Source: Dillenia suffruticosa
Lineage: Eukaryota; Streptophyta; Magnoliopsida; Dilleniales; Dilleniaceae
Direction of reading: 5' to 3'
Assembly (NCBI GenBank): GCA_033439265.1
Contig: JAVTVX010000010.1
Span: 8,122,001 to 8,186,000 of the forward strand
DNA: 64,000 nucleotides
Below, piece after piece: positions 6,030 to 57,862 of the stretch. The notes under the pieces were generated by a model, which was not told where the DNA came from, ran no database searches, and saw only the letters and a list, made by a program, of their open reading frames with translations. The translations under genes and the position numbers were made by a program. Every line of letters begins with the position of its first letter. The first letter of the stretch is position 1.

Positions 6030-6031
6030 AG

Positions 6032-8590: not shown

Positions 8591-8591
8591 T

Positions 8592-24886: not shown

Positions 24887-24899
24887 CACTACAAAAAGT

Positions 24900-25520: not shown

Positions 25521-26794
25521 ATGTTTCGAAAAAAATTTTGAAGTGTTGAATTTAATCAACCACCAAAATCTTGCCTTAAACAAGATCCATATTTAAATCA
25601 TCCGGCCTTAAACTTTGTCCACCTAAAATCCTCATCCACACATCCAACCTTAAAACTGAATTTAATTATCCAGACGGAAGCCTTAAACAAAAAAAAAAAT
25701 CCATCAACATGAATAAATATTTATCAACAAAAGTGGAAATTACAAAAACAAAAAAAAAAATCAAAATACATAAATATCCATGATCAAAAGCTTTCAAATC
25801 CGGAATAAATATCCTGTCAACAAACATACATCAATAAACGAAACCCTCATCAATAATTTAATCATCATTGTCCTACTCATCATCTAAAAGGTCATCATTG
25901 GGCCCATCATTTGGTTGATTAGTGGGAGGTGGGAAAGGAGGAACTTGATTGAGTAAGATTTAGGAGTTGCAATATGAATTGTGTTTGAGACTCCGATGAC
26001 ATATATTGCTCATTGATGGCTTTGATTTTTGTCTTTTTTGTGACTTGAAAGTTTCGTATTGCTTTTTGACTGCTCTTACACTACAAAAAAACCAGCTTTT
26101 AGCCACAAATTTAGCGACAAAAATTTAATAAAAATTCGTTGCTAAAACGTTAGAGACGAAATTAGCGACGAAAAATTTTTCGTCGCTAATAACGCGTCGC
26201 AAAAATTTAGCGACGAAAAATTAGAAATTCGTCGCTAAATTTAGCGACGAATAATTTTTTGTCGCTAAATTCGTCGCAAAATTAGCGACGAATTCCAAAA
26301 TTCGTCACAAAATTAATTAATTAATTAATTAATATATATTAATATTTTATTTTATTTAATTATTTTTCAAATTTAGCAACGAATTCCGGAATTCGTCGCT
26401 AATTTTGCGACGACTTTCGGAATTCGTCGCAAAATTAATTAATTTTTTAATAAATATATATTAATATTTTATTTTATTATTTTTCAAATTTTGCGACGAA
26501 TTCCGGAATTCGTCGCAAAATTAGCGACGAATTCCAGAATTCGTCGCAAAATTAATTAATTATTTAATAAATATATATTAATATTTTATTTTATTTAATT
26601 ATTTTTCAAATTTAGCGACGGATATAAATTCGTCGCTAAATCCGTCGCTAAATTAGCAATGAAAAAAAAAATGCGCTCCCGCCTGAACCCCACCCGCCCA
26701 CCCACCCGAGCCAGTATCCGCCCGCATGTTCGCCCGAGCCGGCGCCCACAAGCCCTCCCTCACTTAATTCTTGAAAATGTCTACATTTTGCTCC

Positions 26795-26860
26795 CACCAT
26801 GGTTCGAACCCTTGCACTTCTGTAAACGTTTAAGACCCTGTAACCATCAAGCTAAATGTT
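26795..26860 (-). other. tRNA-like segment (A and B boxes) with adjoining GC-rich block
   Basis: On the minus strand: A-box-like TTTAGCTTGATGGTTAC (about 26841-26857) and B-box-like GGGTTCGAACC (26801-26811), spaced as in a tRNA. A GC-rich stretch (26670-26765, CCGCCC/GAGCC repeats) follows downstream of the B box. No full cloverleaf is apparent, so this is not called a tRNA gene. The same segment occurs in other CACTA elements at 38805, 56418, 52765 and 57081. Confidence 0.6.
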
Positions 26861-27129
26861 AGTATTTGTTATAAGTTTTTTTTTTTTTTACTTATTATCT
26901 TTCTTCACAAATTTCTAATAATAATAAAACAATATAAAATAACAATTTATTATAAAATAATAAAATATTAGTTTAAAATAAAATAATAAAAGATAAAAAA
27001 AATAATAATACTATTTTTAAAAAAGATAAAATAAAAATAAAATATAAGATATTAATTAAAAATAATAAATGTGATAATTATATTAAAATAAAAAATAAAA
27101 AATATATATTAATATTTTATTTTTTTTTA

Positions 27130-28560
27130 TTTTTTTTCAAATTTTGCGACGAATTTGAAAATTCGTTGCAAAATTTGCGACGAATTTAGAATTCGTTGCA
27201 AAATTAGCGTCGAATTTAGAATTCGTCGCAAAATTAATTAATTATTTAATAAATATATATAAATAAATTTATTTTTTTTCAAATTTTGCGACGAATTCGA
27301 AAATTCGTTGCAAAATTAGCGACGAATTTAGAATTCGTCGCAAAATTAATTAATTATTTAATAAATATATATTAATTTTTTATTTTTTTTTCAAAATTTG
27401 CGACGAATTCCGAAATTTGTCGCAAAATTAGCGACGAATTTATAAATTCGTCGCAAAATTAATTAATTATTTAATAAATATATATAAATAATTTTTTTTT
27501 TTCAAATTTTGCGACGAATTAGAAAATTCGTTGCAAAATTAGCGACGAATTTAAAATTCGTCGCAAAATTAATTAATAATTTAATTAATATATATTAATA
27601 TTTTATTTTTTTTTTTATTTTTTTTTTCAAATTTTGCGACGAATTCGAAAATTCGTGGCAAAATTAGCGACGAATTTAGAATTCGTCGCAAAATTAATTA
27701 ATTATTTAATAAATATATATTAATTTTTTATTATTTTTTTTTTTTTTTCAAAATTTGCGACGAATTCCGAAATTTGTCGCAAAATTAGCGACGAATTTAT
27801 AAATTCGTCGCAAAATTAATTATTTATTTAATAAATATATATAAATAATTTTTTTTTTCAAATTTTGCGACGAATTAGAAAATTCGTTGCAAAATTAGCG
27901 ACGAATTTAAAATTCGTCGCAAAATTAATTAATTATTTAATTAATATATATTAATATTTTATTTTTTTTTTCAAATTTTGCGACGAATTCGAAAATTCGT
28001 TGCAAAATTAGCGACAAATTTAGAATTCGTCGCAAAATTAATTAATTATTTAATAAATATATATTAATTTTTTATTTTTTTTTATTTTTTTTTCAAAATT
28101 TGCGACGAATTCCGAAATTTGTCGCAAAATTAGCGACGAATTTATAAATTCGTCGCAAAATTAATTAATTATTTAATAAATATATATAAATAATTTTTTT
28201 TTTTCAAATTTTGCGACGAATTAGAAAATTCGTTGCAAAATTAGCGACGAATTTAAAATTCGTCGCAAAATTAATTAATTATTTAATTAATATATATTAA
28301 TATTTTATTTTTTTTTTCAAATTTTGCGACGAATTCGAAAATTCGTTGCAAAATTAGCGACGAATTTAGAATTCGTCGCAAAATTAATTAATTATTTAAT
28401 AAATATATATTAATATTTTATTTTTTTTTATTTTTTTTTCAAATTTTGTGACGAATTCCGAAATTTGTCGCAAAATTAGCGACGAATTTCTAAATTCGTC
28501 GCAAAATTAATTAATTATTTAATAAATATATATAAATAATTTTTTTTTTTCAAATTTTGC
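27130..28560. repeat. Satellite-like array: three ~116-bp monomer types in a ~350-bp higher-order repeat
   Basis: About twelve monomers, each made of TTTTGCGACGAATT..AATTCGTYGCAAAA, then TTAGCGACGAATT..AATTCGTCGCAAAA, then AATTAATTAATTATTTAAT plus an AT/T-rich spacer. Three variants alternate strictly: type a (GAATTCGAAAATTCG, at 27293, 27641, 27985, 28331), type b (GAATTCCGAAATTTG, at 27405, 27762, 28107, 28453) and type c (GAATTAGAAAATTCG, at 27516, 27872, 28218). Same-type spacing is 344-357 bp. Confidence 0.9.
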
Positions 28561-30399
28561 GACGAATTTGGCGACGAATTTCCGGTCGTCGCTAAATTAG
28601 CTACAACTTTTTTTTCGTTGGAAATTTCGTTGCAAATAGCGACAAAAAAAGTTTTCGTCGTAAAATTCGTCGCAAAATTGAAACGAAAAAAATTTGTCGC
28701 TAAAGTTCGTCGCAAAAAACGTGTTTTTTTGTAGTGTTATTTCTTCATTCTTCTCTACAAGTAGATTTTTCAATTGGCTCAATTCTTTGATCATTTGGTC
28801 CTCAAGTCGTGTTCTCCTTGAAGCAGCCACATTGGTAGATGAACTGGTACTGGTGTTTGTATATTGCCTTGACAAGGACCCTATCCTGAATATTCTTCTT
28901 TTTTTTATGCCACCAGATGCCTCCACCCACAATGCGATATCAACTGATGGCTCAGACAAAGCAACACCACCATCACTACTAGAACAAGCCATCAGAAATA
29001 AAGATGAAAATACACATGAATTCATATACGTAGGTACCATTAATATTAAAAGCACTTAGCATTCTATTTTCCATAAATTTCAAAGCATCCTCTTACGCAC
29101 CTTAATAGTTTTAGCTCGCTCACCGGTCCATGTCTTATCATTTTTCTGAAATGTCCGTTCAAGTATGGCTGTATATGTAGCTTCGATTCCCATTTCATCT
29201 GCTTACAAAATATAAATATAAAAAAATTCAATGATCAGCTTTGTACTAACATCAACATTCGTCTTCATTCATATGTAAGTTGCTATAAACACTACTTTTA
29301 AACATACAAATGTCTTATGCAAACCATGATGCGGTATCATAGTCAAACGAATAGGATATGAAGTATAAGTAAATTATTTAAATACTCAGTTCGATCAATA
29401 GAAAAAAGTAAATGAGTGATTGAATTAAATTTAACTATAATGTATTTAACACACTTACCATTTTTTTCTATACTTGGCGACATTGATAGAGCCCCCACAT
29501 AGGTGGTAGAGCTTTCACCCGAATTAGAAACTTTATTCTTCTTATTTTGTTAACTCATTTGCTTGTTCTTTTTAGTTTCCCAATGCCTCTTTATCTTGGT
29601 TCAATTTTCATCTGTAACAAAATTAGACTTTTCTTGACTTCCTTTTACTTTATTCATAACACTTCATATATGATCTCCAACTTTCTTGTGAAAAATTCAT
29701 TTTACTTCATGTTCCTCAGTTTCAACCCACCTGAACTTCCACTGCAATTAATAAAAAACAACCAACTTTATTTATATTGAACTTAGTTGGTGAGAGAATA
29801 AAAGGATAAATCTTACCTTAAATTCATTGCTCCACAAATCTTTAACTGCTTTTGGAGTTCTAGTGTAACTGATCTACTCATCCCGCCAATGGTTATCGAC
29901 TATTTTATTAAGTTACCTCACAACATACATAACATTTGAGAATTTGCAAACAAGTTACAAATAAATTTGATTTTTATGATAGTTAAAAGAACGATATTAA
30001 ATATAATTTTAAAAAATAAGTACTCATGAATCTCCACATGGGCATATCAATACTCGGTTATCTTCTTCACATGTGATTCCCTTATCATTTAACTGTTGCA
30101 CCGAAGAAGGTGGAATTGAAGGTGTTGGAACTGAAGATGATTCAGTTCGCATGTGCAAAAGTTGTTTAGGGTTAGACGAAGGGGAAGAAGATGGGGAAGG
30201 GGACAGGGAATCAGACAACTGTACTCCATTCAAATAACATTCCATACGTTGAAAAGTCATTTATCGTCCAAAGAAGAGCAACTTTCATTATAAGTGTTTG
30301 ATGAGTACGGACATCATAGGTTGGAACACCTTCATCCCATAGTTGTTATAACTCCGCAATCAATAGTTACATATAAACATCTATTAACATTTTCGGATT

Positions 30400-31588
30400 T
30401 TACAGGTAAGGAACAATCAATGTAAAAAACATATAAGATATTTCCATACACATCTGGTAGAAGATTGTACGGAGTTAAGATAATTGGTTAACATGAATAT
30501 AAAGCAAACCCATCAGCACGGAGACCTAACCTAGCGTTTCGTGGTTCTTTTGCAAACTCGAGATATGATCTATCAAAATGTTTCCATGCCTCTGTATCTT
30601 AAGGATGATACATTAGACCCTCTTCTGTTTCATGATTTGCATGCCAAGTCATGTGTTCAGTAGTGGCCTGAGATGCATAAAGCCTTTGCAATCTAAAAGT
30701 TAATGGCAAATAAAATATTTGCCTATATTGTTTATGCTTCTCATTACGACTCGGCTTCCTGCAAATCTTGTATCTAGAATGGTTACAGAATTTATAAAAT
30801 TTTAAAATTTCATCATCCCTCCAAAATCATATACAACCCTAACTACATACATCAATCCTTACAACTGGAAGATCTAAGTCTTCCACAATCTTGTTCATAT
30901 TATAAAAATCACTTGACATGTTATCGTGAGACATTGCTACTCGCATTACTTCAATGAAAGAGTTGAAGCAGCTCTCAGACACATTATGCTCTACTTTGAT
31001 ATTTAACTGTATTGATGTCACCGATAACTTAGTATGGCTATCACAACCTACCCACAAAGGTTTATCTGCAACTTTCAAAACTTCCCAAAACTGGTTAGAT
31101 AAAAAAGTTTTATTATTCACATTCTTATCAACACCTGGTACTTCTACCTCTTCCTATGGTGAGACATAAGTAGTATACATTTGTTCGAAAGTTGGAGCAA
31201 AACTAGTACTTGCATTGTTCGATTCTGACACAAAATTTTGACCACTGGCATTAATTATCATTGTTTGATTTGGGTTCAATTGGTCATAATAAGTACATTC
31301 TCCTCTAGCTGAAAATTGCTTACTTCTTTGATATTCTTCATTAGATATAAACTGTTCACCGTGACAAATCCAATTATAATAATTTGGAGTAAAGTCAAAT
31401 CTAGAAAGATATTTTCTAGCTTTATCACACACATGAAACTTACTGTTACTACACTTTTTACACGGATATTTTAACTTATTCTCATCCATGAACTCAACGT
31501 TTCTACTAGCAAAGTCCAAAAATTGTTCCAACCAGATGCAAAACTCATCAGTCAATTCTCGACATTTAGATAACTTCTTACTATGCAT
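30400..31588 (-). pseudogene. TNPD (TNP2-type) CACTA transposase, decayed
   Basis: The frame 31588-31154 encodes the N-terminal transposase-associated domain: LTDEFCIWLEQFLDFA, YPCKKCSNSKF near residue 60, then FTPNYYNWICHGEQ. The frame 31120-30839 continues into the TNP2 domain start (FWEVLKVADKPLWVGCDSH; TKLSVTSIQLNIKVEHNVS; NKIVEDLDLPVVRIDVC). Further left, pieces corresponding to the WHA..M.HP.D.EAWKHFD..Y..FA..PRN.RLGL.ADGF stretch are visible in shifted frames down to about 30480, and the rest of the catalytic domain is absent. TNPD is the catalytic DDE-type transposase of CACTA elements; this copy cannot make it. Confidence 0.82.
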
Positions 31589-31969
31589 CTAAACTGTATC
31601 TTTTTTCATTTTGTCTGGATACAAATTAATGAGTTATAAAATAAGCAAAATATTAAAAAGTCTTATAACCAAGTAAAGAAATTATAATTACCAAGCAAAC
31701 TAAGGTTGTTCATTGCAAAAAGTAGGGAAATTAAACATTGAGTGTGGAAGATGAATGAACAACCAAGTAAATATGCTCTTAGGGAGTGTCTTTTTTTTTG
31801 CTTGCTTTCTCAAACATGGCACTCAAAGATAGAAGAACCTGCAAATCTTGTAGCTGCAGAACTTGTACATAAACTAAGCCGTTCTGGTCCAGGGTTTTTA
31901 CAATCTCAATGTGTTCATTACCAGCAAACAGAAATCCTATTTTAGGTTCAGAGGTTGTCCGCAAAGAGA

Positions 31970-31972
<3 letters not shown>

Positions 31973-32005
<33 letters not shown>
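31973..32005. repeat. Poly(A), 33 bases
   Basis: Uninterrupted A run. It could be the tail of an old retroposed sequence lying to its left (about 31740-31972), but no matching target duplication was seen. Confidence 0.85.
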
Positions 32006-32009
<4 letters not shown>

Positions 32010-33126
32010 AGCTCAATGTCTTCACCACCCAGGTTTAAATAAACAACTAGAATAGACCAGCTAATTCAGCTAGACCCAGGTTTAATCTCACTTAAACATA
32101 TCTCTTTGCCCAAGCTGAGCCCAATATCAAGCCATTAATCAGTTAGACCTGCCTATTGAAATGATTTATTGGCTTCCTTGTTAGCAATATACTCTTAATG
32201 CATGCTAAGTATTAATCAATATAGGACCTTGAAGAGTAAAAGTTAATGGAGCATAGGAACTATAATAAAATCTAGCCAATTGAGCCGGACCAGACCAGCT
32301 TAATCAAAATTTTGCTTAAGTATGATCCAAATATTAACTTGGCAAAAGTAACACAGCTGATCTAACATCATGCCAATATTTATAGCCCAGGCGAAATGAT
32401 GTCAGCAGTGCTGCTTGGGTGGCCAAGTAGGCAGATGCCCACCAAAGTCAGGGTGCTAACAAAGAGGATCATCGACTAAAAAACACAAGTAATGTTAAAG
32501 AAATTTTTATAAACAAAAGGAACAAATGAATTGCAGGGCCTTTGCTCCTATAAGGAGCAAGTAAAGATGATACTCTAGTGAAAAAATCATGTGAATAACA
32601 ATAAGGTGACATGGTACATGTAGAGTCAAATTTATAGGACACCATTTATTAAACTTTACTACACAACAGAATTACCCATTAAGATTAGGACAAATGTTCC
32701 CCCAACTGGAAGTAAAAACACATAGTAATTTTTTTAGAGAAATTTTCATGTTGAGATGAACATGGATTAATTTTTAGAATTATAAATGCATAGTTATTGT
32801 TGAATTTTATTTAACAGAGTTGAATTATATATTTATTCCTTGTTCTTTTCTCGAATTCTACGCTAGAGGCAGAACAAAGAAGCAAGAAAAAGGAATTGAA
32901 AAAGAAAATTGATGAAACCCTAATTTCATAAAAGACAAAGGAACTGCAAATGTTATACAAGAAAAAGGTACGAATGTCGCAGCAACAAATTCAATCCGGG
33001 AGGGCAAGAAAAACAACAGATTGATGAAACCCTAATTTCATGACAAAACAGAGAGAAAGTGACGGATTGATGTAACCCTAATTTCACAACACAAATTATA
33101 GTGAAACCCTAACCATTTAACAAAAC

Positions 33127-33127
33127 T

Positions 33128-33160
<33 letters not shown>

Positions 33161-33186
33161 GGGGGAGGGAGGGAGGGAGGGAGAGT
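33127..33186. repeat. (GA)n(GGGA)n microsatellite
   Basis: GAGAGA array followed by five or so GGGA units, in the presumed 5' leader region of the CACTA genes. Confidence 0.9.
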
Positions 33187-34109
33187 CAATACCTTACGAA
33201 CGGAGCCGAAATAGACTTGAGCTTTGTCGGAGGAGTTTACTTCGGTAGAGGAGCGAACAGAGGTTGTGGAGAGAAGCGATGATCGGGTTTTTTTATCGAC
33301 TCTGCAAGAAAAGCGATGAACAGACTCGAGTTTTGCGTTGAGTAGAAGTTGTGGAGAGAAAGCGAACCAGACTCAAACTTTGCAATGAACAGGCTTTCCT
33401 TTTTGGGTTTGGGAGCAAAATATTGGCCACATTTAGACGCGGATTCAGTCACGGAACTCTTTACTACAAAATCCCTATTTGTAACAAATTAGTCACAAAT
33501 TTAGTTATGAATCCTTATTTAGCCACGAAATCTGTGACCAACAGTTAAAAAAAATATTTATGTTAAAGAGTAATTCTATTTATTGGGATTCATGTGATCC
33601 TTTCCTAATATATTGTAGCATCACATTATTAATCTAAAATTTAAGCTTTGTCGATCATTGGCTTTCCTTTTTTGTTAATGGGGTTATACTGTAGTATGAG
33701 GCGAAATATCATTTTAATAGGCCTTAAGTCGAGTCTAACTCGTTAGATCAAGGTCATAAAAAATTTTAATTATTTTCTAGCATAAACCACACGTTGGTCA
33801 CCACTAAATCTAACTTAAGTTGGGTTGGAATCTCAAAAAACAAATCTCTCATAACACATATTTTCTTCATATACCATACACAAATCTCACCTAAAAATTT
33901 TGCACCTCATGTCGAAAGGTTTTTTTTTGGATCAAATTTTTAAACAAAATATAAATTCATTGCTATTTTGCATATGGGAATAGTTAGGAATTGGTTAAAC
34001 TCTTTATTATCGAAAGTGATCAATTTGATGAGAATTGTAATATTCACTACATATTCAAATCTATTCATTTATCGTAATACGGTTTGAGAGAAAGACACGG
34101 TTAAATAAA

Positions 34110-34888
34110 ATTGGACAAAAACTACAAATTAACGACGAAATTAGTGATGAGCATATTGTTTGTTGATAATTAGCAATGAATTAGTAACGAACAAAAATTT
34201 CTTAGCTAACCTAGTGATGAATTTAGTGACAAACAAGCATATCATGGCAAATTAACGACAAATTTAACCAATGAAATTTAGTTACAAAATTAGTGATGAA
34301 TATTTCGCGATGAAAATATATTTTTATAATTTTTCTACCTCATTTTTTGTGACGAACAATGTTTGTGGCAAATTAATGACAAATTTAGTCATGAAAATTT
34401 AGGTACAAAATTAGCGACGAATTTTTAGCCACAAACAGACTTTCATGACAAATTAGCGACGAATTTACTATTTATGAAAAATTAGCGATAAATTTAGCCA
34501 CGAATATCTAGCTACAAAATTAATCACGAATTTTAGCAATGAAGATATTGTTTGTGGTAAATTAGCGATGAATTTAGCAACAAAAATATTTTTTCATAAT
34601 TTTTTACCTCAATTTTTTGTGATGAGCACTGTTCGTCGCAATTAGCGATAAATTTTACAATGAAACTTTTTTGTGGTTAATGATCGATAAATTGAGTAAC
34701 GAAAACTATTTGTTGGAAATTTTGTCATGCCTTTGCGACAAATTAGAATTTTCATCGCTAATTAGCGACGAATTATTTTTTGTAACAAACTTTGTTGGAA
34801 ATTAGCAACTAAACCTTTTTGTCGCTAATTTCATTGCAGATTAGCGATGAAATTTTTTCTTTTGCTAATTGCGAACTTTTTTGTAGTG
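34110..34888. repeat. Subterminal repeats of CACTA element (5' end)
   Basis: Repeated TTAGCGACGAATTTAG / AAATTCGTCGCTAATT units, many decayed, up to the terminal TTTTTTGTAGTG. Confidence 0.82.
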
Positions 34889-37971: not shown

Positions 37972-38519
37972 CATTACAAAAAAATAGGTTTTTAGTCACA
38001 AATTTAATGACGAAAATTTTAAAAAAATTGGTCGCTAAAAACATTAGCGACGGATTTAGCGACAAAAAATTTTTCGTCACTAATAACGCGTCGCAAAAAT
38101 TTAGCGATGAAAATTAGAAATCCGTCGCAAAATTTAGCGACGAAAATCTGAAATCCGTCGTTAAATTTAGTGACAAATAATTTTTTGTCGCCAAAATTTG
38201 TCACAAAATTTAGCGACAAAAAATTATCCGTCGCTAAATTAGCGACAGAAAAAAAATCCGTTGCTAAATTTAGATACGAAAATCTAAAATTCGTCACTAA
38301 ATTTAGCGATAAATAATTTTTATCGCTAAAACCCGTCGCTAATTTAGAAACAAAAAATTATCTTTCGTTAAATTAGCGACAAAAAAATTATCCGTAACTA
38401 ATTTAGCGATAGAAAAATTATCCGTCGCTAATTTAGAGACAAAAATATCCGTCTCTAATTTAGCGACGAAAAAAAAATCCGTCTATAATTTAACGACGAA
38501 TAAAAAAATCCGTCGTTGG

Positions 38520-38866
38520 TTCCAAATTCGTCGAAGAACGCGCCCTGCACACCTGAGCAGCACTTGCCTGCAAGCCACGTGCCTGGACGCCCCGCCCACT
38601 CGAGCCAGCACCAGCTTGCAAGCTACCTGCTCGCCTGAGCTAGCACCTCGGCCTGCAAGCGCGCCCTCCCGCCCCCGAGCCAGAGCCAGCACCCCCATCC
38701 TCACTTCCCCGGCCTGCAAGTGCGCCCTCCCGCCCCCGAGGTAGAGCCAGCACCCTGTCCTCACTTAATTGCTGGAAAATGCCTCCGCATTGCCTCCAAA
38801 GTAATTCGAACTTCGAACTCCTGCACACACATCAACCTGTAAAAGCATTTAACCACCAAGCCAATG
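38520..38866 (-). other. tRNA-like segment plus GC-rich block (first module of the element)
   Basis: Minus strand: A-box-like TTGGCTTGGTGGTTAAATGC (38844-38863, near TRGYNNARNGG), B-box-like GGAGTTCGAAG (38811-38821), GGAGGCAATGCGGAGGCATT, then the GC-rich block 38520-38760. Within the block a 61-bp unit starting GGCCTGCAAG is tandemly doubled (38650 and 38711). The AT-rich strip beyond the A box (TTTTTTACTTATTATCTTTC) is also shared with the module at 26795. Confidence 0.6.
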
Positions 38867-39434
38867 TTAGTATGTGATATAAATTTCTTTTTTTTTTTTT
38901 ACTTATTATCTTTCCTTCACATTTTTATAATAATAATAAAATAATATATAATAACAATTTAAAATAATAAATATAATATTTTTTTACTTAAACCACCAAC
39001 CTAAAATAATATTAATTAAAAATAATAAATATGATAATTTTTAATAAAATAAAAAAATATAAAATACTAATTTACAATAAAATAATAAATTAATTAAAAA
39101 ATATATTAATATTATATTTTGTTTTCTTCTTTTTTCTTTTATTTTATTATTTTATTTTTATTTTTCATTTTTATTTTATTTTTTTAATCAGTTTAAAAAT
39201 GGGGTATCTTAATAATATAAAATTATAATTATTAATAAATTATAATATATTAATAATTTAAAAAACTATATATTTAATCACAAAATATTTTTATTCAAAT
39301 ATATAAGTAAATATAATTATTATATATAAGAAATTTCAAAGAAAAAAAAACCCAAGTAAGAGGAAGGAAAAAAAAATGAGAATAGAAAAAAAATGAGGAG
39401 GAAGAAAGAAAAAAAAAATACTTACAAATAAGTC

Positions 39435-39740
39435 TTAGGGTGGTCCATTGGTTGACACATTCTCCGTTCAAATCCGAGTTCCAAGGTTCAAATTTCTTCA
39501 ACAGCATTTTTTTAACATTATTTAGCATTAAAACAATGAAGGGCGGGCGCCCGAGCGTACGCATGGGTGCTAGTGCATGCATGCGCCCCAGCAGGCGCGC
39601 CTAGGCGCACGCCCCTGACTGTGGGCTGGCACGCACGCATGTGCGCCCACGCAGGCGCTAGTGCATGCATGAGCGAGCCACCTAGGCGCGCGCCCCTGAC
39701 TGCTCCCAGCGCCCGCGCAGCCTTGCGCCCAGGCCCGCCG
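39435..39740 (+). other. Second tRNA-like segment plus GC-rich block, opposite orientation
   Basis: Plus strand: GGGTGGTCCATTGGTTGAC (39438-39456) as an A-box-like stretch and CCAAGGTTCAAAT (39481-39493) as a weak B box. The GC-rich block 39540-39740 follows, with repeated GCATGCATG and CCTAGGCGC motifs. Weaker tRNA likeness than the other copies. Confidence 0.45.
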
Positions 39741-40139
39741 AATTAATATTAATTAAAAAATATTATAAATGATTTGTATTATTGAATAAAATAATAGAAA
39801 TAAAATAAAAGGTACCTATACAATAATAAAAAATATTAAATAAAAGAAAAAAAGAAAAAAAATAATAAATTAATTAAAAAATATATTAATATTATTCTTA
39901 GAAAAATAAAATATAAAAAAATAAAATAAAATGTTATTTTAAAATATTATAACAGTTTATATGGTTTTAAATAATATAATTTAAATAAAATAAAATATAT
40001 GGTCTTTTTTTAAGATTTAAATAATATTATTCTTTAAAAAAATGAAATATAATATAATAAAATAAATTGTTAAATTAAAATATTATAAAATAGTAATATG
40101 ATTTGTTAATATAAATTAAAAAAATGAGATAAAACTGAT

Positions 40140-40265
40140 TCAGCGACGACATTGGAATCCGTCGTTGAAACAGCGACGGACTTGGAATCCGTCGCTGAAA
40201 CAGCGACGGACTTGGAATCTGTCGCTAAAACAGCGATGGACTTGAAAATCCGTCGCTAAATTACC
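40140..40265. repeat. ~30-bp palindromic tandem repeat, 4 copies
   Basis: Units CAGCGACGGACTTGGAATCCGTCGCTGAAA recur four times with minor changes (starting at about 40141, 40170, 40200 and 40230). Each unit is itself an inverted repeat (CAGCGACGGA..TCCGTCGCTG). Confidence 0.85.
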
Positions 40266-41736
40266 GACCGATAAAATTCATCGTCGCTAAATTAATTTTT
40301 TAATTTAAATATTATATTAATATTATATTTTATTTAATTATATATAAAAAATTTTACTACGGATTGAAATTCTTGTCGCTAAATTTATCGACCGGAAACA
40401 AATCTATTGCTAAATTAATTTTTAATTTCAATATAACATATTAATAAAATAAAAATAAAAATAAAAATAAAATAAAATTCTATTTAAAAAAGATTAAATT
40501 TTGTGACGGATATAAAAATTTGTCGCTAAATTAGCGACTGATATAAATTCATCGCAAAATCAGTTACTAAATTTGCAACGCATATAAATTCATCGCTAAA
40601 TCCGTCGCTAAATTAGCAACGGATTCTTTATTCGTCGCTAAGTTACCGATGGATTTCTCGATCCGTTGCTAATTTAGTGACGGATTTCTAAATCCGTCAC
40701 AAAATCCGTCGCTAATTTAATCCTTTTTTTATATAAATTTGTATTTTATATTTTGTTTTCTTCTTTTTTCTTTTATTTTATTATTTTATTATTATTTTTC
40801 ATTTTTATTTTATTTTTTTGAATCCATAGAATAGTTTAAAAATTGATAGTCGTCTAACCTAATTATCCGTGCCATCCAATGATAAATGAAGATAAACAAT
40901 TGAACTTTTAAATACGATTGAATTATATGAGAGAAACGAACGGATATAGAAGATGAAAAATATAAATGGTGAACTCCACAACCATGACTTATTTAAAATT
41001 GTCTGTTACATATTTATTCAATTATTTATTTTTGTAAATTCTCAGTTTATTAAAAATTATAATATTTATTATATATTTAATTCAATTTCGTTATTCAGAA
41101 TTAGTTAAAACGGGGTCATGGTTAAAAATATTTCCTAATAGAGTATAAAAAAATTTAGTTGTGAAATTAGTCTTAAATTTTGAAATATAGATAATAAATT
41201 AGCGACGAATTTAGTCACGAATATTTTTTTTTGGCTAATTAGCGACAAATTTAGCTATAAATATTTTTTATTGCTAATTAGTGATGAATCCAGCCACGAA
41301 TTTTAGATTTCATTGCTAAATTTAGAGACAAATATTTTTTCGTAGCTAATTAGCGACGAAAAATTTTTGTAACTAATTAGCGACAGAATTTCCCACGAAA
41401 TTTTTTCGTTACTAAATTTAGCGACGAAAGTTGTCACGAACTTTAGCTACGGATAACTGTATCCTTGGCAAAATTTAGCCATGAAATATTATTCGTCACT
41501 AATTAGCAACAAAATTTGTAACGAAATATTTTTTGTCGCTAATTAGCGACGAATTTAGTCACGAAAACTTTTTCATCACTAATTAACAACGAATTTAGTT
41601 ACGAATTATGTGTCCGTCACTAATTTAGCCACGACTTTCTTTTTGTCGCAAATTTTGTGGCAAATTAGCGACGAAAAAGTTTTTGTCGCTAAATTTGTCT
41701 CAAAAATCCGTGATAAAACTGTGTTTTTTTGTAATG

Positions 41737-43406: not shown

Positions 43407-44079
43407 TGTTACATAGTGTTGGTAATAAATTTGGCTCCACAAATGATAGTTTTGTTGACTCGAACAAGATGACTGTCCATTTGTTGATCTTGATTAATGA
43501 GACTTGCAAAAGATTGGCGGATGGTACTTTGGTGGGGAGACTGATACTTAAATCGAGAAACAGACTGAAAAAGAATTCCATAATGTCTTTGTGTGCAATA
43601 TGTAAGTTCAGATACTGTACTTGACCTGTTGTTAATGATATATGTACAGTTTTCGTGTATGAGTTTTGTAGCAAATCAAGGCATTAAAACTCTAATTTCC
43701 TTATGGAAATGTTTCGAGATTCTCAGGTACTTAACAAAATTGTAATAGATTCAGAGTCTTACCAGTTGGGGAAAGTTTCAGATCGTCAGGGGATTACTTT
43801 CCTTATTGGTGAGGATTCAAAGATTTCTAGGCTTGTTACGACATGCCACTCCTCGTGTCTTATAGGAAAATGAATATTATTCCAAGTTGACCAAATATTT
43901 AATATCAAAAAGATTCGAGAGTCGATCAAGTAGCTATAGAGAAAGATTTGGATGGTATGCATTGAGAGGACGGGGCATGTCCCTTGTAAATGGCATGTTT
44001 TGGTTCATTTTAGTGCATTTCTCCATTGGGCCTTGAGCTTATGTCTCACACTAATGGTCCTTTGGACCACGCTCCATCA
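43407..44079 (-). repeat. 3' LTR of Gypsy element
   Basis: On the minus strand it begins TGATGGAGCGTGG at 44079, just after a polypurine tract AAGGAGGGGGA (about 44084-44094), and ends CTATGTAACA at 43407. It shares stretches such as TGTTGACTCGAACRAGATGA and CTTGATTAATGA with the 5' LTR. Confidence 0.75.
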
Positions 44080-48600: not shown

Positions 48601-49050
48601 GGCTTACAATTGGTATTTACAGTCAGTATGTGAACTACAACTATCGGGTGAATTCCTAACATGTCTGTTGGGGACCATACAAAAACTTTAAAATGTCGTT
48701 AAAGACAATCCACAATTGCGTTTTGGATGGGTGTTCGTAGGTGGCGCCAATTTAGACCGTTTGGCCATGTACATCCGTTATGAAAACTTCGATTACTTGA
48801 TCTCCAAGTTGAGATTTGAATCGGTGTTCGACATCATCTCTAAGCTCTAATATTTCTACTAATAGAATTTCTTTCTCTGCTTTGATGGTGGGGACAGTAG
48901 AAGGGTTGACGTCACCATGAAGCATTACAAACCTTCAGGGTGTCTTGAATTTGATTTTCATGTACCTTGTGCTTGGTAGTGCTTCGAGACCATTCAAACT
49001 AGGATGACCTAGGATGGTGTTGTAGGGGAATGAGAGTTTCACCACATGAA
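45660..49050 (-). pseudogene. pol region of Gypsy element (protease, RT, RNase H, integrase), broken
   Basis: Minus strand, right to left: NTILGHPSLNGLEALPSTRY (protease-RT linker, about 49030-48970); CQHAIHEEVQKFLAVGCIREV and then CINFTKLNKVCLKDSYLLPNIDKLV with LSSFMDTYSYYNQI (RT, 48662-48195); RNase H in about 47700-46950; and integrase with FLVVVMDYFTKWIE (about 46430) and FGIPHILITDNDKQF (about 46290). Broken copy. Confidence 0.85.
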
Positions 49051-49420
49051 AAATGATTCTGGTAGTAGCATGGTAAGGAGGCGTTCCTAAGATTACGATA
49101 AGTGAAATGGTATCTTCCGAATATATACACTAATCAGTGAATCCTTTTATGGGTCCATCAAAGGGTTGAAAATGAGATGGGGCAAAACTTATCCGTTAGA
49201 AGGTGTCCCAAAAGAAAAGGGCTCAATTTGCTCCTTGATTAACGAAAGTCCTTTTAACGAGGTAGGTCCTTTTCCAGCGGTGATGATTAGTAGATCGTCT
49301 CTGTCAGTGTCAACTCCTATTACATCGTTGTCATTGAAACCGATGGTTGGCATTTTTCTCTTAATTGATGCCATGACTATAAAAAGAAAGGGATGGTAGT
49401 AGCAACTTGGGAAATCAGTT

Positions 49421-50102
49421 TGTTCCCATAGATTATGCAAATCTATTGGAGGTATGTTTAACTCCACAGATAATAGTTCTGTTGACTCGAACGAGATGAC
49501 TATTTGTCTGTCGATCTTGATTAATGATACATGCAAAAGACCACCGGAGCGTGTTTCGCAGGGGAGACTCCGATACTAAAGTCAGAAAGTGATTTTTGAA
49601 AGCAGAAATAGACTAAATATATGTAAGTTCAAACAGCATATCTAGCCTGTTTGTTTAATGATATATATACGGTTTCCAAGTATGAGTTTTATATGCATTC
49701 AAAGCATTAAAACCCTAGTTTTCTTATAGAGGTGTTTTGAGATTCTCAGATACTTAACAAAATTTTAAGAGATTCAGAATCTTACTAGTTGGGGAAAGTT
49801 TCAGTTCATCAGGGGATTACTTTACTTATTAGTGAGAATTCAAAATTTTCATTTCTTGTTACAAGATAATGTTTCCCTTATCTTATGAAAAGATGAATAT
49901 TATTCTAAGTTGATCAAATATTAAATATCGAGAAGATTTGGGAGCTGATCAGGTAGCTACTGAAAAGGGTTTGGTTAGTATGCACCAAGAGGACGGGACA
50001 TGTCCATGTAAATGACATGCTTCGGCTCGTTTTACTATATTTTGTTTATTCGATTTTGGATTTATGTCTTGCACTAATGGGTTTTTAAATCATACTTTAT
50101 CA
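49421..50102 (-). repeat. 5' LTR of Gypsy element
   Basis: Minus strand begins TGATAAAGTATG at 50102 and ends CTATGGGAACA at 49421. Matching stretches with the 3' LTR include GATTCTCAGRTACTTAACAA and CTAGTTGGGGAAAGTTTCAG-like text, in the same order. Confidence 0.75.
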
Positions 50103-52220
50103 CATAGTTTTGTCTTAAAAATAATATTATATGTCACATCTGCAAATCACTGTTTTGTCATGTCTCAAAATGAAAAGTTTAAAAGGATGTTATGATTGAT
50201 GCAAAGCATTATCCATATACCATGCACAAGCTTTATACCCAATTGTCGTGTTCAAAGACCAAAGTAGGACATATAAATAAATATATATAATTTTAAAGTT
50301 GATGCTAAATGATAAAATCTTAATTATAAATAATTTATAAAATTAAAAATATAAATGATTTATATTTTATATTTTAAGAGTACTTCTAAATTATTTTCTA
50401 TTAAAAAATTGATATATTATATTAATGTTACGAAAGTTAGGATTACACTAGATAGTCAAACCTCTGAATTGAAATTGGTTTGAAACTAAAGATAAAATGA
50501 TATTAATTTAATAAAAAAATGGCATTAATATGATCAGTTAAGTTTTATTGATCGAAAATAATTTAAATTAGATGATTATAAAATAAAGATTATTATTATT
50601 TTTAATTTAAAAATTAAGATTTAGACAACCTAATAGATGTTGAACAAATACGCAGGCGAGAAATGAACATTAAAGAAGTAATGTACTTGCACTTAAATGA
50701 GGAGATCTTGCGAAAATCCAAGCATATGTGAATACATGGCTGCATCTCTGAGGCACCGAAACAATGAGGCTGTCAAACTTGGAAGACCTTCCGAGATGAA
50801 TCGAGTGACACCCTAATTCTCATGTACGCCCCTCAACCCGAAGAGTACAAGCAATACAAAAATTTCAGGATGTCATAATAGCAACATGTCAAGTGCATGT
50901 GAGTTTGTAGATGTGGGTAGATGGGGGAAGAGGTCTTTTGAGGGCAAAAAGGCTACATGTTTGATAGCCTTGAATGCATTTTTTGTTTGGATTCAGAGCA
51001 AACATAGTTGTATTGCATAGTGTTCGTGCTTCTATTGTATATTGTATATGGCCTTTTGATGAATCACTTGAATATATTGTGTTTCATTTGTGAAGGAAAA
51101 AAAAATGAACTTTAAATTTAGAATGACATTTTAAATTCTTTTTGAAATACGTTGTTAGGTTTGTCTGATATTTAGAAAGTAGAAGGCTTTTTCGCGTGTT
51201 AAGTTATATTATTTGTCTTATTTAGATTTATATTTTATTAATAAAAAATAACTCTACTAAATATTTTATATACAACCCTATTAGGAGTCAAGCCTAAAGG
51301 AACGTGCCTAAAGAAAAAAGGTTGTCCTAAACACTTTGGGATGCTATAATTTTCTCTAGTTCTAAAGAGTAAATAGAGAGTTTTGGAATTCATAAGAGGG
51401 TGTACCATGGGTATTTGAATTTGAGTTGATTTTCAAATTGAATCTTGCTACTTATATTGGTTTATTTTCACGATAGGAAGAACTTGGGTCTCTTGTGGAA
51501 GTTGTCAAAAGGGTGGTGAGATGTTTGACCAGCAAGTTGCATGCGAAAAAAATGTTAGATAAAACTCGATGGTGGAGGCCCACAAGTGGCTGAGCACTTG
51601 AACCACTTAGTGAGATTCTTGGTCAACTCATGAAAAATTGATGATGAAGACAAGGAGCTTGCTTCTTTCACTCCCTAGTGAGAACTGCATGGAAACGTTG
51701 TTGCGTGGGAAAGAAATAATGACCATGGAATAGGTACTGTTAACGTTGGTAGCTCATAATACTCCACGTAAATCAAAATTTGGTAATAGGTATTAATGAG
51801 GTTGATTACTTAATCTTACGGTGGAGGATCTCTGTAATGTTAATTTAGATCTAAAGTTAGAAGTTTGGACAATATTAAATTAGATCTAAAGTAAGAAATT
51901 TGAATGATATTTAGTATTTCAGATGCAAAAGATATGGGCACCTTAGGTGGGATTGGCATAGGAAAAAAAAAAAGATAAAAGCAAAAAAAAAAAGCACTTG
52001 AAAGAGTAGTCCACGTGGAACGATAATAGAAATGTTTTCTCGTCTCCAAAAGCACTTGTGTCATGAAAAAAAAAAAGAAAAAGAAAAAGAAAAAAAGGAT
52101 CTTGAATGACATTTCTTCTTGTAATGGTTTATGTTAAGACACCTTATGTCACTCATGTACGCTTTAGAAAAAGAATACCTTAATTGTTTATATAAAAAGC
52201 ATGACAGCTAAGTTGAAATT
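50103..52220. other. Intergenic, no gene recognised
   Basis: AT-rich. A more complex stretch at 50640-50880 has no open frame of note. At 51305-51360 a ~56-bp sequence (GCCTAAAGAAAAAAGG..ATAATTTTCTCTAGTT) resembles 58301-58356. A/AAG-rich runs lie at 51960-52100. Confidence 0.5.
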
Positions 52221-53579
52221 TACTACTAAAAAATAAAATATCAATGACAGAAATATCTGTTATTAATAGTAAAGATTTTGTTATTAAGGAATATTAGTGA
52301 CGGTCGCTAATTTTGTCGCTAAAAACCTCCGTACTAAATATTAGTGACGGAAGACCATCGGTTGCTAAATTTTTTAACAGATTAGCAATGGAATATTTCT
52401 GTCGCTAAAAATTTTCATCACTAATCTATCATTAATTTCAAACAATATGTAAAACTATCAGTAACAAAAATATTCTATCACTGATTAGCTTTACATAATC
52501 CACTAGCGCCCGCAAGTTCACCCATGCTGCCCACTAGTGTACCCGCCAACTCCCTGTGCCCATAGGATGAAAACCTTCACGCTAAATATTAACGATGGAA
52601 GACCATTGATCGTTAAATTTTTCAACGGATTAGTGACAAAATATTTCTGTCGCTAAAAATTTTGATCGCTAATCCGTCACTGATTTCAAGTAATATGTAA
52701 AACTAATCCGTTGTTGATTAGTGGGCGCCCACCTTGCCTTCTTTTTTTTCCTTTCGAAAAGTGTCATCACGCGGACTCGAACCTGGGCATGCAACGAGAG
52801 TTTGAATTATGATAACCACCGTGTCATAATGTCATATCTAATCATTTTTTTATTTGTTATCTTACTCTCACTTTTTTTTAAGAATAATAAAATAATATAA
52901 AATACAAATTTATTATAAAATAATTGAATAATAAAATGCTAACTTAAAATAAAATAATAAAAATTTAAAAAATAAAACAATATTATTCTTTAAAAAATAA
53001 AATATAAAAAAATAAATAAAATGATAATTTAAAATATTATAAAATAATAAATATGATTTGTTAATATAAAATAAAAATAAAAAGAAAATAAAAGGAAAAT
53101 AAAATAAAATAATATAAAATAATATAATATATAAAATGCTAATTAAAAAAATTAAGTTTAGCGACGAAAAATTTTCGTTGCTGATTCATCACTAATAGTG
53201 TTACATAGTTTCTGAAATTAGTAACCAATTAACAACGGAAAATTTTTGTCATTAATTTGTCGCTGATAGTTTTAGATAGTTTCTTTTTTCTTGGTTTTTT
53301 TATCCTAAACTAGTACATCGATGGATTAGCGACGGAAAAAAATCCGTCACTAATTTCCGTTGCTAATCCCTCATTAAGTAACAATATTTCTTCCAGTTGC
53401 GACCGATTAGCTACGAAAATATTTTTATCATAAATTTCCATCACTAATCTATCGATAATTTTTTTATTTTTTTTTATTTTGTAACGTCTGACGATAATTT
53501 GTCGTAATTCCGACACTATTTACGATGAAATTTTTCCACCACTAATTTTCCATCATTGATACTTTGTTTTCTTGTAATG
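52221..53579. mobile_element. Short CACTA-type element (1359 bp)
   Basis: Left end TACTACTAAAAAATAAAATA at 52221; right end reverse-complements to CATTACAAGAAAACAAAGTA (53579); both continue TCAATGA. The target duplication is ATT at 52218-52220 and 53580-53582. Both terminal heptamers deviate from CACTACA. The interior has ATTAGTGACGGA/TCCGTCGCTAA repeats, GC-rich patches (52500-52560, 52720-52735) and a tRNA-like segment. No coding capacity. Confidence 0.8.
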
Positions 53580-54030
53580 ATTAATGGTAATTCAACTATA
53601 GGAGTCATGAAATGTAGGTCCGTAAAAATTAAAATGTTTGAGATCACTTTGAAGTGAGTTGTTTATATATATATATATATATATTTATTTATTTATTTAT
53701 AATCAATCAGTATTTAAAATCATATTCTGATTAATTCATTTCGAACGTTGTCAGATCCAATTTAGAGAAAACATCTTATAATATAATATTTTTCATTTTC
53801 AAGTTTTGAATATAAAATTTGATTATAAAATTTAACACTTTTTTGTCTATTAAGTCTATTGAAATCTAATATTTTTGAATTTGTTAAACTTCTAAATTTA
53901 TAAGTACAAAACAAAATTGGGTGAAATTGTAAGGATAACTCGTAGTTGCATGGTCCTTATGATTCTCATGAACAGAAATACAAGCCTTTTTTGAGGTGCC
54001 AAACTTTCTTACATGAGTTGTATTATCTTT
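52763..54030. repeat. Duplicated segment, copy 1 (element right half plus flank)
   Basis: Matches 57081-58286 in direct orientation, at about 90% or better by eye over the stretches compared. It covers the right part of the CACTA-type element and about 450 bp of flank beginning ATTAATGGTAATTCAACTAT. A TA array at 53665-53690 accounts for part of the length difference. Confidence 0.85.
52765..52840 (-). other. tRNA-like segment with consensus B box
   Basis: On the minus strand GACACGGTGGTTATC (about 52813-52828) is A-box-like and GGTTCGAGTCC (52773-52783) is an exact match to the pol III B-box consensus. The spacing is tRNA-like. A GC-richer patch (GTGGGCGCCCAC, about 52722-52733) lies downstream of the B box. 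Confidence 0.6.
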
Positions 54031-54116
54031 CATTTAATTTTTTTTTATTTAGAAAAGTGATAACTCTATAAATAATTTGTATAGTAAAGATGCCAAGACA
54101 AAAGAAAATTGCCTAA

Positions 54117-57080
54117 CACTACAAAAAAAACACGCTTTTAGTCACGAATTTTCGTGACAGAAAAAATTCGTCGTTAATTTGTGACAAATTTAGACACGAA
54201 AAAATTTTCATCGCTAATTTGCAATAAAATTTGCGATGAAAAAGAAGTTGTGGCTAAATTAGCAACGAACACATTATTCGTGACTAAATTCGTCGCTAAT
54301 TAGCGACAAAAACGTTTTCGTGGCTAAATTCGTCACCAATTGGCGACAAAAAATTTTTTGTTACAAATTTTGTCGCTAAATTTTGCCACAGATACAGTTA
54401 TCCGTAACTAAATTTAGCGACGAAAATAATTTGTAACAAATTTCGTCGCTAAATTTAGTAACGAAAAAATTTCGTAGCAAATTCTATCGCTCATTAGTTA
54501 CAAAAGTTTTTTATCGCTAATTAGCCACGAAAAAATATTTGTCTATAAATTTAGCAATGAACTCCAAAATTCGTGACTAAATTCGTCACTAATTAGTCAC
54601 AAAAAATATTTGTGATTAAATTCGTCGCTAATTAGTCACAAAAAAGTATTCGTGTCTAAATTCGTTATTAATTTATTACCTATATTTCAAAATTTATGGC
54701 TAATTTCATAACTAAATTTTTTCTATACTCTATTAGAAAATATTTTCAATATTGTCCCCTTTTTTAACCAATTCTGAATAACGAAATTGAATTAAATATA
54801 TAGTAAATATTATAATTCTCACCAAATTAAGAATTTTCACAATAAATAATCCAATCAATTTGTAACAGACAATTTTCAATAAGTCACGATTGTGGAGTTT
54901 ACAATCCATGTTTTTCATTTTCTACATCCGTTCGCTTCTCTCATATAGGTCAATCATTTTTTAAAGTTCAATTGTTCATGTTCATTCGTCATTATCATCA
55001 ACAAGGAAGATAATAAATGATATATCCATCTTTGACGATCCATCTCGTTTGGCAAGTATATCAAATATTAGTTTTTAGAGAATGATAACAATAATACGGA
55101 TGGCTACTATTAGGCGGCTATCCATTTATAAACTATTCTATAGTTTCAAAAAAATAAAATATAAATGAAAAAAATAATAAAATAAGAAAATAAAAAAAAA
55201 ATAAGAAAATAAAATATAAAATACAAATTTATATAAAAAAAGATTAAGTTAGCGACAGATTTAGCGACGAATTTATAAATCTGTCACTAAGTTAGCGACG
55301 AATTGAGAAATCCGTCGCTAAGTTAGCGATGGATACAAAATTTCTCGCTAAGTTAGCGACGGATTTAGTTACGAATTTATATCCGTTATTAAATTAACGA
55401 CGAATTTTCAAATCTATCGCTAAATTTAATTTTTTTTCATTAGAATTTTTTTTTATTTTTCTTTATATTATTAATTTATATTAACAAATCATATTATTAT
55501 TTTATAATATTTTAATTTAACATTTTATTTTATTATATTATAGTTCATTTTTTTAAAAGAATAATATTATTTAAATCTTAAAAAAAAAACTCAATGAACA
55601 AATCAATTTATTATGTTATAATATATTTTAAAATAGCATTTTATTTTATTTTTTTATATTTTATTTTTCTAAGAATAATATTAATATATATTTTTAATTC
55701 ATTTATTATTTTATTTTAAGTTAGCTTTTTATTATTTTTTATTTTATAAAAAATTATGATATTTATTAATTTTCATTAATATGTTATATTTTATTTTTTA
55801 GCGATAGATACGGAATCAGTCGCTAATTTAGCGATGAATTTTCATATCCGTCGCTAAATTCATATCTGTGGCTAAATTAGCGACGGATTTCAAATCCGTC
55901 ACTAAATTTAATATTTTTTTAATTAGAATTGTATTTTTTTTATTTTTCTTTTATTTTCTTAATTTATATTAACAAATCATATTATTATTTTATAATATTT
56001 TAATTTAACATTTTATTTTATTATATTATATTTCATTTTTTAAAAGAATAATATTATTTAAATCTTAAAAAAAACCATATGAACAAATCAATTTATTATG
56101 TTATCATATATTTTAAAATAGTATTTTATTTTATTTTTTATATTTTATTTTTCTAAGAACAATATAAATATATTTTTAATTCATTTATTATTTTATTTTA
56201 AATTAGCATTTTATTTTTTTATTTTATAAAAAATTATGATATTTATTATTTTTAATTAATATTATTTTAGCTTGGTGGTGATATGTTTTTACAGATAATA
56301 AGTAAAAAATTATCATATTTATTATTTTTAATTATTATTTTATATTATTTTATTATTATTAGAAAAATGTGAAGGAAAAATAATAAGTAAAAAAGAAAAA
56401 AGACAGATACTAATATTACACTTGGTGGTTATATGCTTTTACATATTTATGCGTGCGCAGGAGTTCGAACCACAGTGGAGGCAAAGCGGAGGCATTTTTT
56501 AGGAATTAAGTGAGGGCGGGCGGGTGCTGGAGCGGGCTAGGGCGGGTGGTTGGGCTCGCATGCAGGGTCCTGCAGGTAGGAGCTCGTCTTGCTGGGGGCC
56601 AGTCTAGGCACGTGCGCTCACTTGGGCATTTTGAATTTAGCGACAAATTTGAAATCCGTCGCTAAATTAGTGATGGACTTTTTTTTCATTGTTAATTTAG
56701 TGACGGATAATTTTTTGTCGCTAAATTTTGGGAAAGATTTTTGCGATGAAAAATTATCCGTCGCTAATTTAGCAAAAATTTTTAGGTTTCCGTCATTAAA
56801 TTTTGCAACGAATTTTTTTATGTCGCTAATTTAGTAACCGATAATTTTTCATCACTAAATTTTGTGACGGATTTTAGCGCCGAATTTTAGCTTTTTGTCA
56901 CTAAATTTAGCAACGAATTTTTTTTCATTGCTAATTTAGTGATGGATAATTTTTCGTCACTAAATTTTGTGACGGATTTTAGCGACGAAAAATTATGCAT
57001 CGCTAAAACGGATTCCTATTTTCCGTCCCTAAAATTTTGTGATGCGTGATTGGTGACGAAAAATTTTTCATCGCTAATAT
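54117..57080. mobile_element. Non-autonomous CACTA element, right end lost at a chimeric junction
   Basis: Left end CACTACAAAAAAAACACGCT at 54117 after TAA. It is an inverted relative of the element at 37972-41736: 54117-54990 corresponds to 41736-40830, palindromic blocks lie at 55240-55440 and 55795-55910, AT filler follows, then the tRNA-like/GC-rich module (56418-56630) and GCGACGAA repeats to about 57077. There the homology to the other element's terminal region breaks off, some 110 bp short of a terminus, and the sequence becomes the duplicated segment copy 2. Confidence 0.8.
56418..56635 (+). other. tRNA-like segment plus GC-rich block
   Basis: Plus strand: CACTTGGTGGTTATATGC (56419-56436) as A box and GGAGTTCGAACC (56460-56471) as B box. 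GGAGGCAAAGCGGAGGCATT and AATTAAGTGAGGG follow, then a GC-rich block (56515-56635). A partial copy of the A-box part (TAGCTTGGTGGTGATATG) lies at about 56268-56286 without a B box. This is the clearest match to the module at 38520-38866. Confidence 0.62.
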
Positions 57081-57862
57081 GTCATCACGTGGATTTGAAA
57101 CTGGGCATGCAACGAGAGTTTGAGTTGTGACAACTACCATGTCACAATATCATATCTAATCATTTTTTTTACTTGTTATCTTACTCTCACATTGTTTTAA
57201 GAATAATAAAATAATATAAAATGTAAATTTATTATAAAATAATTAAATAATAAAATGCTAACTTAAAATAAAATAATAATGATTTAAAAAATAAAATAAT
57301 ATTATTCTTTAAAAAAATAAAATATAAAAAAATAAAATAAAATGTCAATTTAAAATATTATAAAATAATAAATATGATTTGTTGATATAAAATAAAAATA
57401 AAATAAATAAAAAAATATAAAATGATAATTAAAAAAATTAAGTTTAGCTACAGAAAATTTCCATCGCTGATTCGTGGCTAATAATGTTACATAGTTTCTA
57501 AAATTAGTGGCAGATTAACAACGGAAAATTTTCGTCATTAACTCGTCACTGATGGTTTTAGATAGTTTCTTTTTTCTTGCCTTTTTTACCCTAAATCAGT
57601 ATACCGATGGATTAGTGACAAAACAAAATCCGTCATTAATCTCTGTTGGTAATCCCTCATTAAGTAACAATATTTCTTCTAGTTGCAACCGATAAGCGAC
57701 GAAAATATTTTTATCGTTAATTTCCATCATTAATCTCTTGATAATTTTTATCTTTTTTATTTTATAACGTCTGAGGTTAATTCGTCGTAATTCCGATACT
57801 ATTTATGATGGAATTTTTTCGTCACTAATTTTCTGTTATTGATACTCTGTTTTCTTGTAGTG
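57081..57862. mobile_element. Right half of a second copy of the short CACTA-type element
   Basis: Corresponds to 52763-53579 of the element at 52221 and ends in a canonical TTTTCTTGTAGTG at 57862, followed by ATT. Its left half is missing. It includes a tRNA-like segment on the minus strand (57081-57150; B box GTTTCAAATCC, mutated). Confidence 0.8.

Follow-up and report, generated by a model that had tools for sequence, protein, structure and literature searches.

Several non-autonomous CACTA transposons of Dillenia suffruticosa carry an internal tRNA-like module, which consists of an AT strip, a core whose A and B boxes are spaced as in tRNA genes and a GC-rich stretch. The module was characterized in a 64-kb stretch of the 596-Mb genome (contig JAVTVX010000010.1, C10:8122001-8186000; hereafter, the window) and in copies retrieved from the rest of the assembly. 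We put the probability that it constitutes tRNA-derived cargo common to several non-autonomous CACTA families at about two in three, a figure that excludes any activity of the core. The original prediction placed A/B-box pairs in six segments of the window, five of them considered strong copies, and direct reading located a pair at each of the six. Comparison of the window with itself split the segments at 26795, 38805 and 56418 (type I, in elements E1, E2 and E3) from those at 52765 and 57081 (type II, in C1 and C2), and the segment at 39435 (E2b) represents a third type. The five strong copies are all homologous, as had been claimed, but the one at 57081 is no independent copy, C2 being a duplicate of C1.

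To establish homology between the types, a type I profile (including 26795, 38805 and 56418, without the 39435 copy) and a separate type II profile (including 52765 and 57081) were run against the window at E 0.01. Both matched all six segments and nowhere else (E ≤0.01), one extra row corresponding to the GC block that adjoins 38805, and the reversed window gave zero matches to either profile at the same threshold. As each profile contains the window copies of its own type, only the cross matches are informative. These were obtained with the type I profile on C1 (E 1e-10), C2 (3e-8) and E2b (3e-8), and with the type II profile on E1 (4e-18), E3 (4e-17), E2 (2e-8) and E2b (4e-8); on C2 and E2 it is mainly the AT strip that is covered, and the composition bias there equals or exceeds the score. 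Thus, two independent profiles cross-match at the six places against an empty control, which confirms the predicted homology of the segments. The AT strip that was said to precede the A box is indeed shared: type I and type II consensus sequences agree at 50/63 of its positions, with an alignment score of 81 compared to 47 for the best of 500 shuffles.

Candidate copies were found in the genome at 558 (type II), 851 (type I) and 613 (type III) places, 40 of each being scored. The best-scoring 30/40, 20/40 and 5/40, respectively, were fetched, so the fetched loci lean towards window-like copies. Among the 30 copies thus assembled for type II are C1 (L001) and C2 (L028), its duplicate; the 23-copy type I set consists of 20 loci plus E1-E3, with E2b left out. 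An earlier type I profile, in which E2b was included, matched the type II module in 19/20 10-kb loci at E ≤1e-5, missing only L048.

Type II modules lie within CACTA elements of ~1.1 kb (951-1359 bp among 17 aligned copies). The order in these elements is a terminus near CACTACAAGAAAACAG, subterminal repeats of the TTAGCGAC type, the AT strip, the A box at about nt 691 and, after the core, a GC-richer stretch, further repeats and the terminus TATCAG. When 20 type II loci of 10 kb each were compared, the part common to many of them extended over ~1-1.3 kb around the module; beyond this, sharing was confined to some minor segments and to an additional module, of type I, in both L032 and L038. 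Termini were tested in these 20 loci plus C1, and both best-match termini with an identical 3-bp target site duplication (TSD) were detected in 14/21 copies. In these, the left terminus matches at 15-23 and the right one at 16-23 of 24 positions, although the terminal matches of L037 and L045 are little above the next-best site. For the other seven (L033, L049, L032, L044, L042, L039 and L040) no complete element could be demonstrated, and the element alignment kept 17/21 copies, omitting L049, L044, L042 and L040, whose ends are unclear.

In the window, C1 (52221-53579, minus strand; TSD ATT on the plus strand) is a type II non-autonomous CACTA element with decayed termini that match those of the family at 21/24 and 19/24 positions. 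Its core (52773-52826, minus strand) has the A box at 52816-52826 (TGACACGGTGG) and the B box at 52773-52783 (GGTTCGAGTCC), with a spacing of 32 nt. C2 (57080-57862, minus strand) is a truncated copy, 85% identical to C1 over 1.27 kb, with its core at 57091-57144 (minus strand; A box 57134-57144, B box 57091-57101). The outer flank attaatgg is identical in C1 and C2, and therefore C2 is a local duplicate of C1 and not a separate insertion.

Type I modules were also found between CACTA ends. E1 (26079-28736, minus strand; 2658 bp, subfamily Ib) is a complete non-autonomous element with termini CACTACAAAAAAACC and TTTTTTTGTAGTG, a terminal inverted repeat (TIR) match of 13/13 and TSD TTA, and is 92% identical to the element at L032 over 2.35 kb. 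Its core (26800-26854, minus strand) has the A box at 26844-26854 (TAGCTTGATGG) and the B box at 26800-26810 (GGTTCGAACCA), spaced by 33 nt; a GC-rich block beyond the B box (26671-26765) was delimited by reading the sequence, and the AT strip preceding the A box (26866-27136, minus strand) by reading and self-comparison. E2 (37972-41736, minus strand; 3765 bp, TIR 13/13, TSD ATA) is a complete CACTA-type element with two divergent modules. The main one (38809-38863, minus strand) has the A box at 38853-38863 (TGGCTTGGTGG) and a B-like box at 38809-38819 (AGTTCGAAGTT), adjoined by a second GTTCGAA, and its GC-rich block (38540-38766) is in part a tandem of a ~61-bp unit. Both ends of E2 read CATTA/TAATG instead of CACTA/TAGTG, through decay or as a variant terminus. 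E3 (54117-57079, end approximate, plus strand) starts with CACTACAAAAAAAAC and is 78% identical to the element at L038 over 2.1 kb; its right end was lost at the junction with C2, and the TIR/TSD search found no valid pair of ends for it. The E3 core (56418-56472, plus strand; A box 56418-56428, ACACTTGGTGG; B box 56462-56472, AGTTCGAACCA) is followed by a GC-rich block at 56505-56640. The composite at 54117-58286 appears as E3 and C2 joined through loss of the right end of E3 and the GC side of C2, and the flanks of C1 and C2 indicate a local duplication around E3.

Elsewhere in the genome, L038 (2724 bp) and L032 (2419 bp) are type I elements with matching termini and TSD, the end search having retained only TIR pairs with a TSD. 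The TIR match is 13/13 in E1, E2 and L032 and 12/13 in L038, and the four share the presence of a 3-bp target duplication. Subterminal TTAGCGAC and GTCGCTAA motifs were counted in E1, E2, E3, L032, L038 and the type II consensus. Taken with the 14/21 type II copies, these four elements bear out the claim that the module has spread inside CACTA elements. A further candidate CACTA element of 3.9 kb (L047:4515-8437, 3923 bp, TIR 11/13, TSD TGA) contains a degraded type I-like module at L047:6751-6954, in which the AT strip is kept, the A box damaged and the B box lost; it was left outside the counts. E1 itself is nested in a ~10-kb CACTA element (24887-34888, CACTACAAAAAGTT.. / ..TTTTGTAGTG, flanks ATA) that bears an open reading frame (ORF) with the transposase-associated domain PF13963 (31154-31588, minus strand). 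The termini of this host element are unlike those of E1, and neither module profile matched it outside E1.

The type III module, E2b (39441-39495, plus strand), is divergent from the main module of E2 and shows the A box at 39441-39451 (TGGTCCATTGG), the B box at 39485-39495 (GGTTCAAATTT), a spacing of 33 nt and a T-run after the boxes, with a GC-rich block beyond (39540-39740). The consensus of the five fetched copies and the window copy reads TGGTCCAGTGG, 33 nt, GGTTCAAATCT and then a T-run (15/18 in box score, see below). E2b lies in a segment (39079-39895) that has the same 37 bp, in direct orientation and without mismatch, at either end (39079-39115, 39859-39895), so modules may have been exchanged through their AT strips. 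The divergent arrangement seen in E2, with a type I match 0.5 kb off, recurs at two of the 40 places listed, C16:20682472 (minus strand) and C8:8090161 (minus strand).

Box pairs were scored out of 18 against the Galli consensus. Scores of at least 14 were reached at five places in the window, four of them on modules (two of these overlapping at 52.8 kb) and the fifth, 7108 (plus strand), off any module; 40 block shuffles produced a mean of 0.8 such places, with a maximum of 3, and never a score of 16. The best place is 52826 (minus strand), with 16/18 at a spacing of 32 nt, where scoring confirmed the exact B-box consensus predicted at 52773-52783. The places 38863 and 26854 (both minus strand) scored 14 at a spacing of 33 nt. 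Scores at 56418, 39435 and 57081 were 12-13, equalled by 52, 21 and 3 of 100 shuffles of their own stretch, so that 56418 and 39435 are not beyond chance on the boxes alone.

The clearest likeness to a pol III (RNA polymerase III) promoter came from the 30-copy type II consensus, which has an exact A box TGGCNNAGTGG (TGGCATAGTGG) and an exact B box GGTTCGANNCC (GGTTCGAGTCC) 32 nt apart, spans 54 nt from start to end and scores 18/18 by eye. All 30 single copies, damaged as they are, score 13-17, values equalled by at most 5/100 shuffles. In 29/30 copies a run of TTTT or longer is located 11-12 nt past the B box, and in 1/30 one is found between the two boxes. Moreover, the acceptor positions of this consensus pair at 6/7, while shifts of 1-5 bases give at most 4; among the copies, seven pairs are formed in 2, six in 16, five in 9 and one or two in 3. 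Types I and III have imperfect boxes at 33 nt. In type I, a T-run was found 21-22 nt past the B box in 21/23 copies, and box scores were equalled by at most 5/100 shuffles in 14/23.

Several results weigh against a tRNA-derived promoter module. The B box of the 17-copy element consensus, GATTCGAGTCC, is one base off. In the remaining 9/23 type I copies the box scores were equalled by at least 7/100 shuffles, and the type I consensus pairs at 1/7 acceptor positions. In addition, 22/23 type I copies have TTTT between the boxes, which should hamper pol III and speaks against a full-length transcript made by this polymerase. The core RNA folds no better than its shuffles. ARAGORN and Rfam, by which the module might have been recognized as a tRNA, reported zero tRNAs, Rfam even at E ≤10 over the window region and over 20 type I loci, type II being represented by its window copies, and neither a match to tRNA models nor a cloverleaf was found. 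Likeness to the best of 18 tRNAs beyond the boxes was reached in 1/300 box-preserving shuffles, which is marginal. As candidate parents, the nearest tRNAs (Val for type II, Pro for type I, each at 1/300) were too weakly similar to be named. Rfam at E ≤10 on 24000-60000 gave 64 matches, none on any core, the strongest being plant microRNA families on subterminal repeats.

Conservation tempers the picture as well. Within families, the boxes are kept no better than the spacer (type I: A 0.81, B 0.90, spacer 0.79-0.87; type II: A 0.80, B 0.74, spacer 0.78-0.88), and such decay is as expected of dead copies. Between the type I and type II consensus sequences, 9/11 (A) and 7/11 (B) box positions agree compared to 12/32 in the spacer; the score of the core alone was reached in 8/500 shuffles, a weak result. 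When E1 was compared with L038, the two representing different type I families, most 100-nt bins were 34-65% alike, whereas identity rose to 73-87% over E1 nt 1601-2000, which comprise the AT strip and core, and to 82-83% over the last ~150 nt; one further bin (1101-1200) reached 73%. The highest bins suggest that the AT strip and core were preferentially kept or exchanged, but this is no proof of constraint, because elsewhere identity is reduced as the subterminal repeats turn over. The GC-rich bin (2001-2100) was only 49% alike, and from its sequence the GC-rich block appears alike in composition and not clearly in sequence. The predicted GC-rich block after the B box is clear in types I and III and weak at 52.7 kb.

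Given these data, the core probably derives from a tRNA gene. The segments are copies of one homologous module of AT strip, A/B-box core and GC-rich stretch, and we propose that its core was captured from such a gene by an ancestral CACTA element and then inherited as an internal part of non-autonomous elements, now of at least three diverged types. CACTA termini and subterminal repeats are mobilised by transposase supplied in trans, and the module would have moved along as these ends were cut and pasted. The core most likely is, or once was, a type 2 promoter of pol III, to which TFIIIC would bind, and a type II core would yield a ~75-nt transcript ending at the TTTT past the B box. The layout of type II, with its near-perfect boxes and TTTT at 11-12 nt, fits pol III, and pol III activity of type I appears doubtful. 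Judged from sequence, actual TFIIIC binding or pol III transcription of type II is possible but rather unlikely, and less likely still for type I.

An explanation of the same origin that differs on function is that a tRNA fragment was caught once and has since been inert filler, its boxes persisting only because there were few masters. To this we give somewhat less than an even chance. It accommodates the equal decay of boxes and spacer within families and the TTTT between the type I boxes, and CACTA transposition requires no transcript from the non-autonomous copy, being independent of it. The better agreement of the boxes than of the spacer between types I and II does not favor it, nor does the fact that AT strip and core rank with the best-preserved stretches in elements that have diverged elsewhere. 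An alternative on origin, which we consider unlikely, is that AT strip and GC block go back to ancient regulatory sequences of CACTA elements, in which the A and B boxes were chance motifs that became fixed. Maize Spm has a GC-rich control region; the wording "downstream control region" did not occur among the literature matches listed. By consensus identity only the short A box (9/11) surpasses the AT strip (50/63) in conservation between types, Rfam was negative and the cores alone are weakly alike, all in line with such an origin. It is opposed by the exact or near-exact boxes of the type II consensus at tRNA spacing, the boxes spaced by 33 nt in types I and III, the T-runs past the B box and the canonical acceptor pairing in type II.

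The third possibility, put forward in the original prediction, is that an ancestral SINE (short interspersed nuclear element) became integrated in a CACTA element, which has carried it ever since. The tRNA-like head with its two boxes would be in agreement, the genome does have one such SINE at L045, and an A-run lies ~10 nt past the TTTT of type II. However, a 7-mer repeat flanking the type II core is absent from the 17-copy consensus, no SINE body or poly-A tail shared across types was seen, and the homology upstream takes in the AT strip and reaches into the A box. The SINE at L045:729-960, which served as a control, shows what would be expected, with a tRNA-like head, a poly-A tail and a 15-bp target duplication. 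As the type II core has neither a 7-base flank repeat, the check applied for an own target duplication, nor a common poly-A 3' tail, a SINE insertion is unsupported and seems quite improbable. No module with its own target duplications was seen outside CACTA elements, in a search that was not exhaustive (20 type II loci with 10 kb of context, complete elements at 14/21 copies). A further A/B-box pair at L033:7759 (minus strand; TGGCCTAGTGG / AGTTCAATTCT, score 15), unmatched by the module profiles, is perhaps a different tRNA-derived repeat.

Other features of the window include a Copia-type long terminal repeat (LTR) retrotransposon at 5407-12832, whose ~628-bp direct repeats (5407-6031, 12205-12832; 89% identical) enclose an ORF with a PF07727 reverse transcriptase. 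A second direct repeat of ~630 bp (43435-44057 and 49462-50080, 75% identical) possibly represents the LTRs of an old retrotransposon. Subterminal inverted repeats at 26197-26279, 38120-38250, 40507-40696 and 56689-56775 resemble MIR6297 and MIR9563 below the cut-off (E down to 7e-6); this resemblance in sequence suggests that CACTA ends may have given rise to these microRNA families.

A pol III promoter within the element is a typical feature of transposons that replicate via RNA. Parallels to tRNA-derived plant SINEs, including the local one at L045, are the A box, the B box and their tRNA spacing; unlike them, the module was found without its own target duplication or poly-A, and its boundaries are CACTA termini. 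No precedent for a tRNA-like module in CACTA elements was found among the matches listed from the open-licence literature, as judged by titles and abstract openings. The soybean non-autonomous CACTA element Tgmt* (En/Spm, CMC) has CACTA termini, a 3-bp duplication and repeated subterminal motifs, as here, and a term search of the paper gave zero occurrences of tRNA, in contrast to the A/B-box module found here between AT strip and GC-rich stretch (PMC2613891). MER6, a Tc1/Mariner miniature inverted-repeat transposable element with a V-SINE body, is likewise a DNA transposon spreading SINE-derived cargo, but its similarity extends over the body and tail of the SINE and leaves out the tRNA-related head, unlike the module described here (PMC6887750). 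Also comparable are Helenus (tRNA-like), present in plants too, and Cassandra and Ajax (5S-like), terminal-repeat retrotransposons in miniature grouped as 'TRIMp3', which are also non-autonomous and have a presumed pol III promoter derived from a small-RNA gene, for which an origin by capture has been proposed (PMC10886601). These are LTR retrotransposons that move via RNA, for which such a promoter is obviously useful, whereas CACTA elements move as DNA and do not depend on a transcript.

By analogy, a CACTA lineage might have retained the promoter taken from a tRNA gene as a functional site for TFIIIC and pol III, as a DNA-transposon counterpart of Cassandra and Helenus, which we regard as an improbable scenario. 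If it were true, TFIIIC occupancy would perhaps keep the element in open or insulated chromatin, reachable by transposase. In any case, a tRNA-like promoter module travelling as cut-and-paste cargo is unusual for CACTA elements, and plant annotation may mistake such modules for SINEs or tRNA pseudogenes. The module would raise the testable question of why a DNA transposon keeps one, whether to provide insulation through TFIIIC, access to chromatin or small RNAs, or to no purpose at all.

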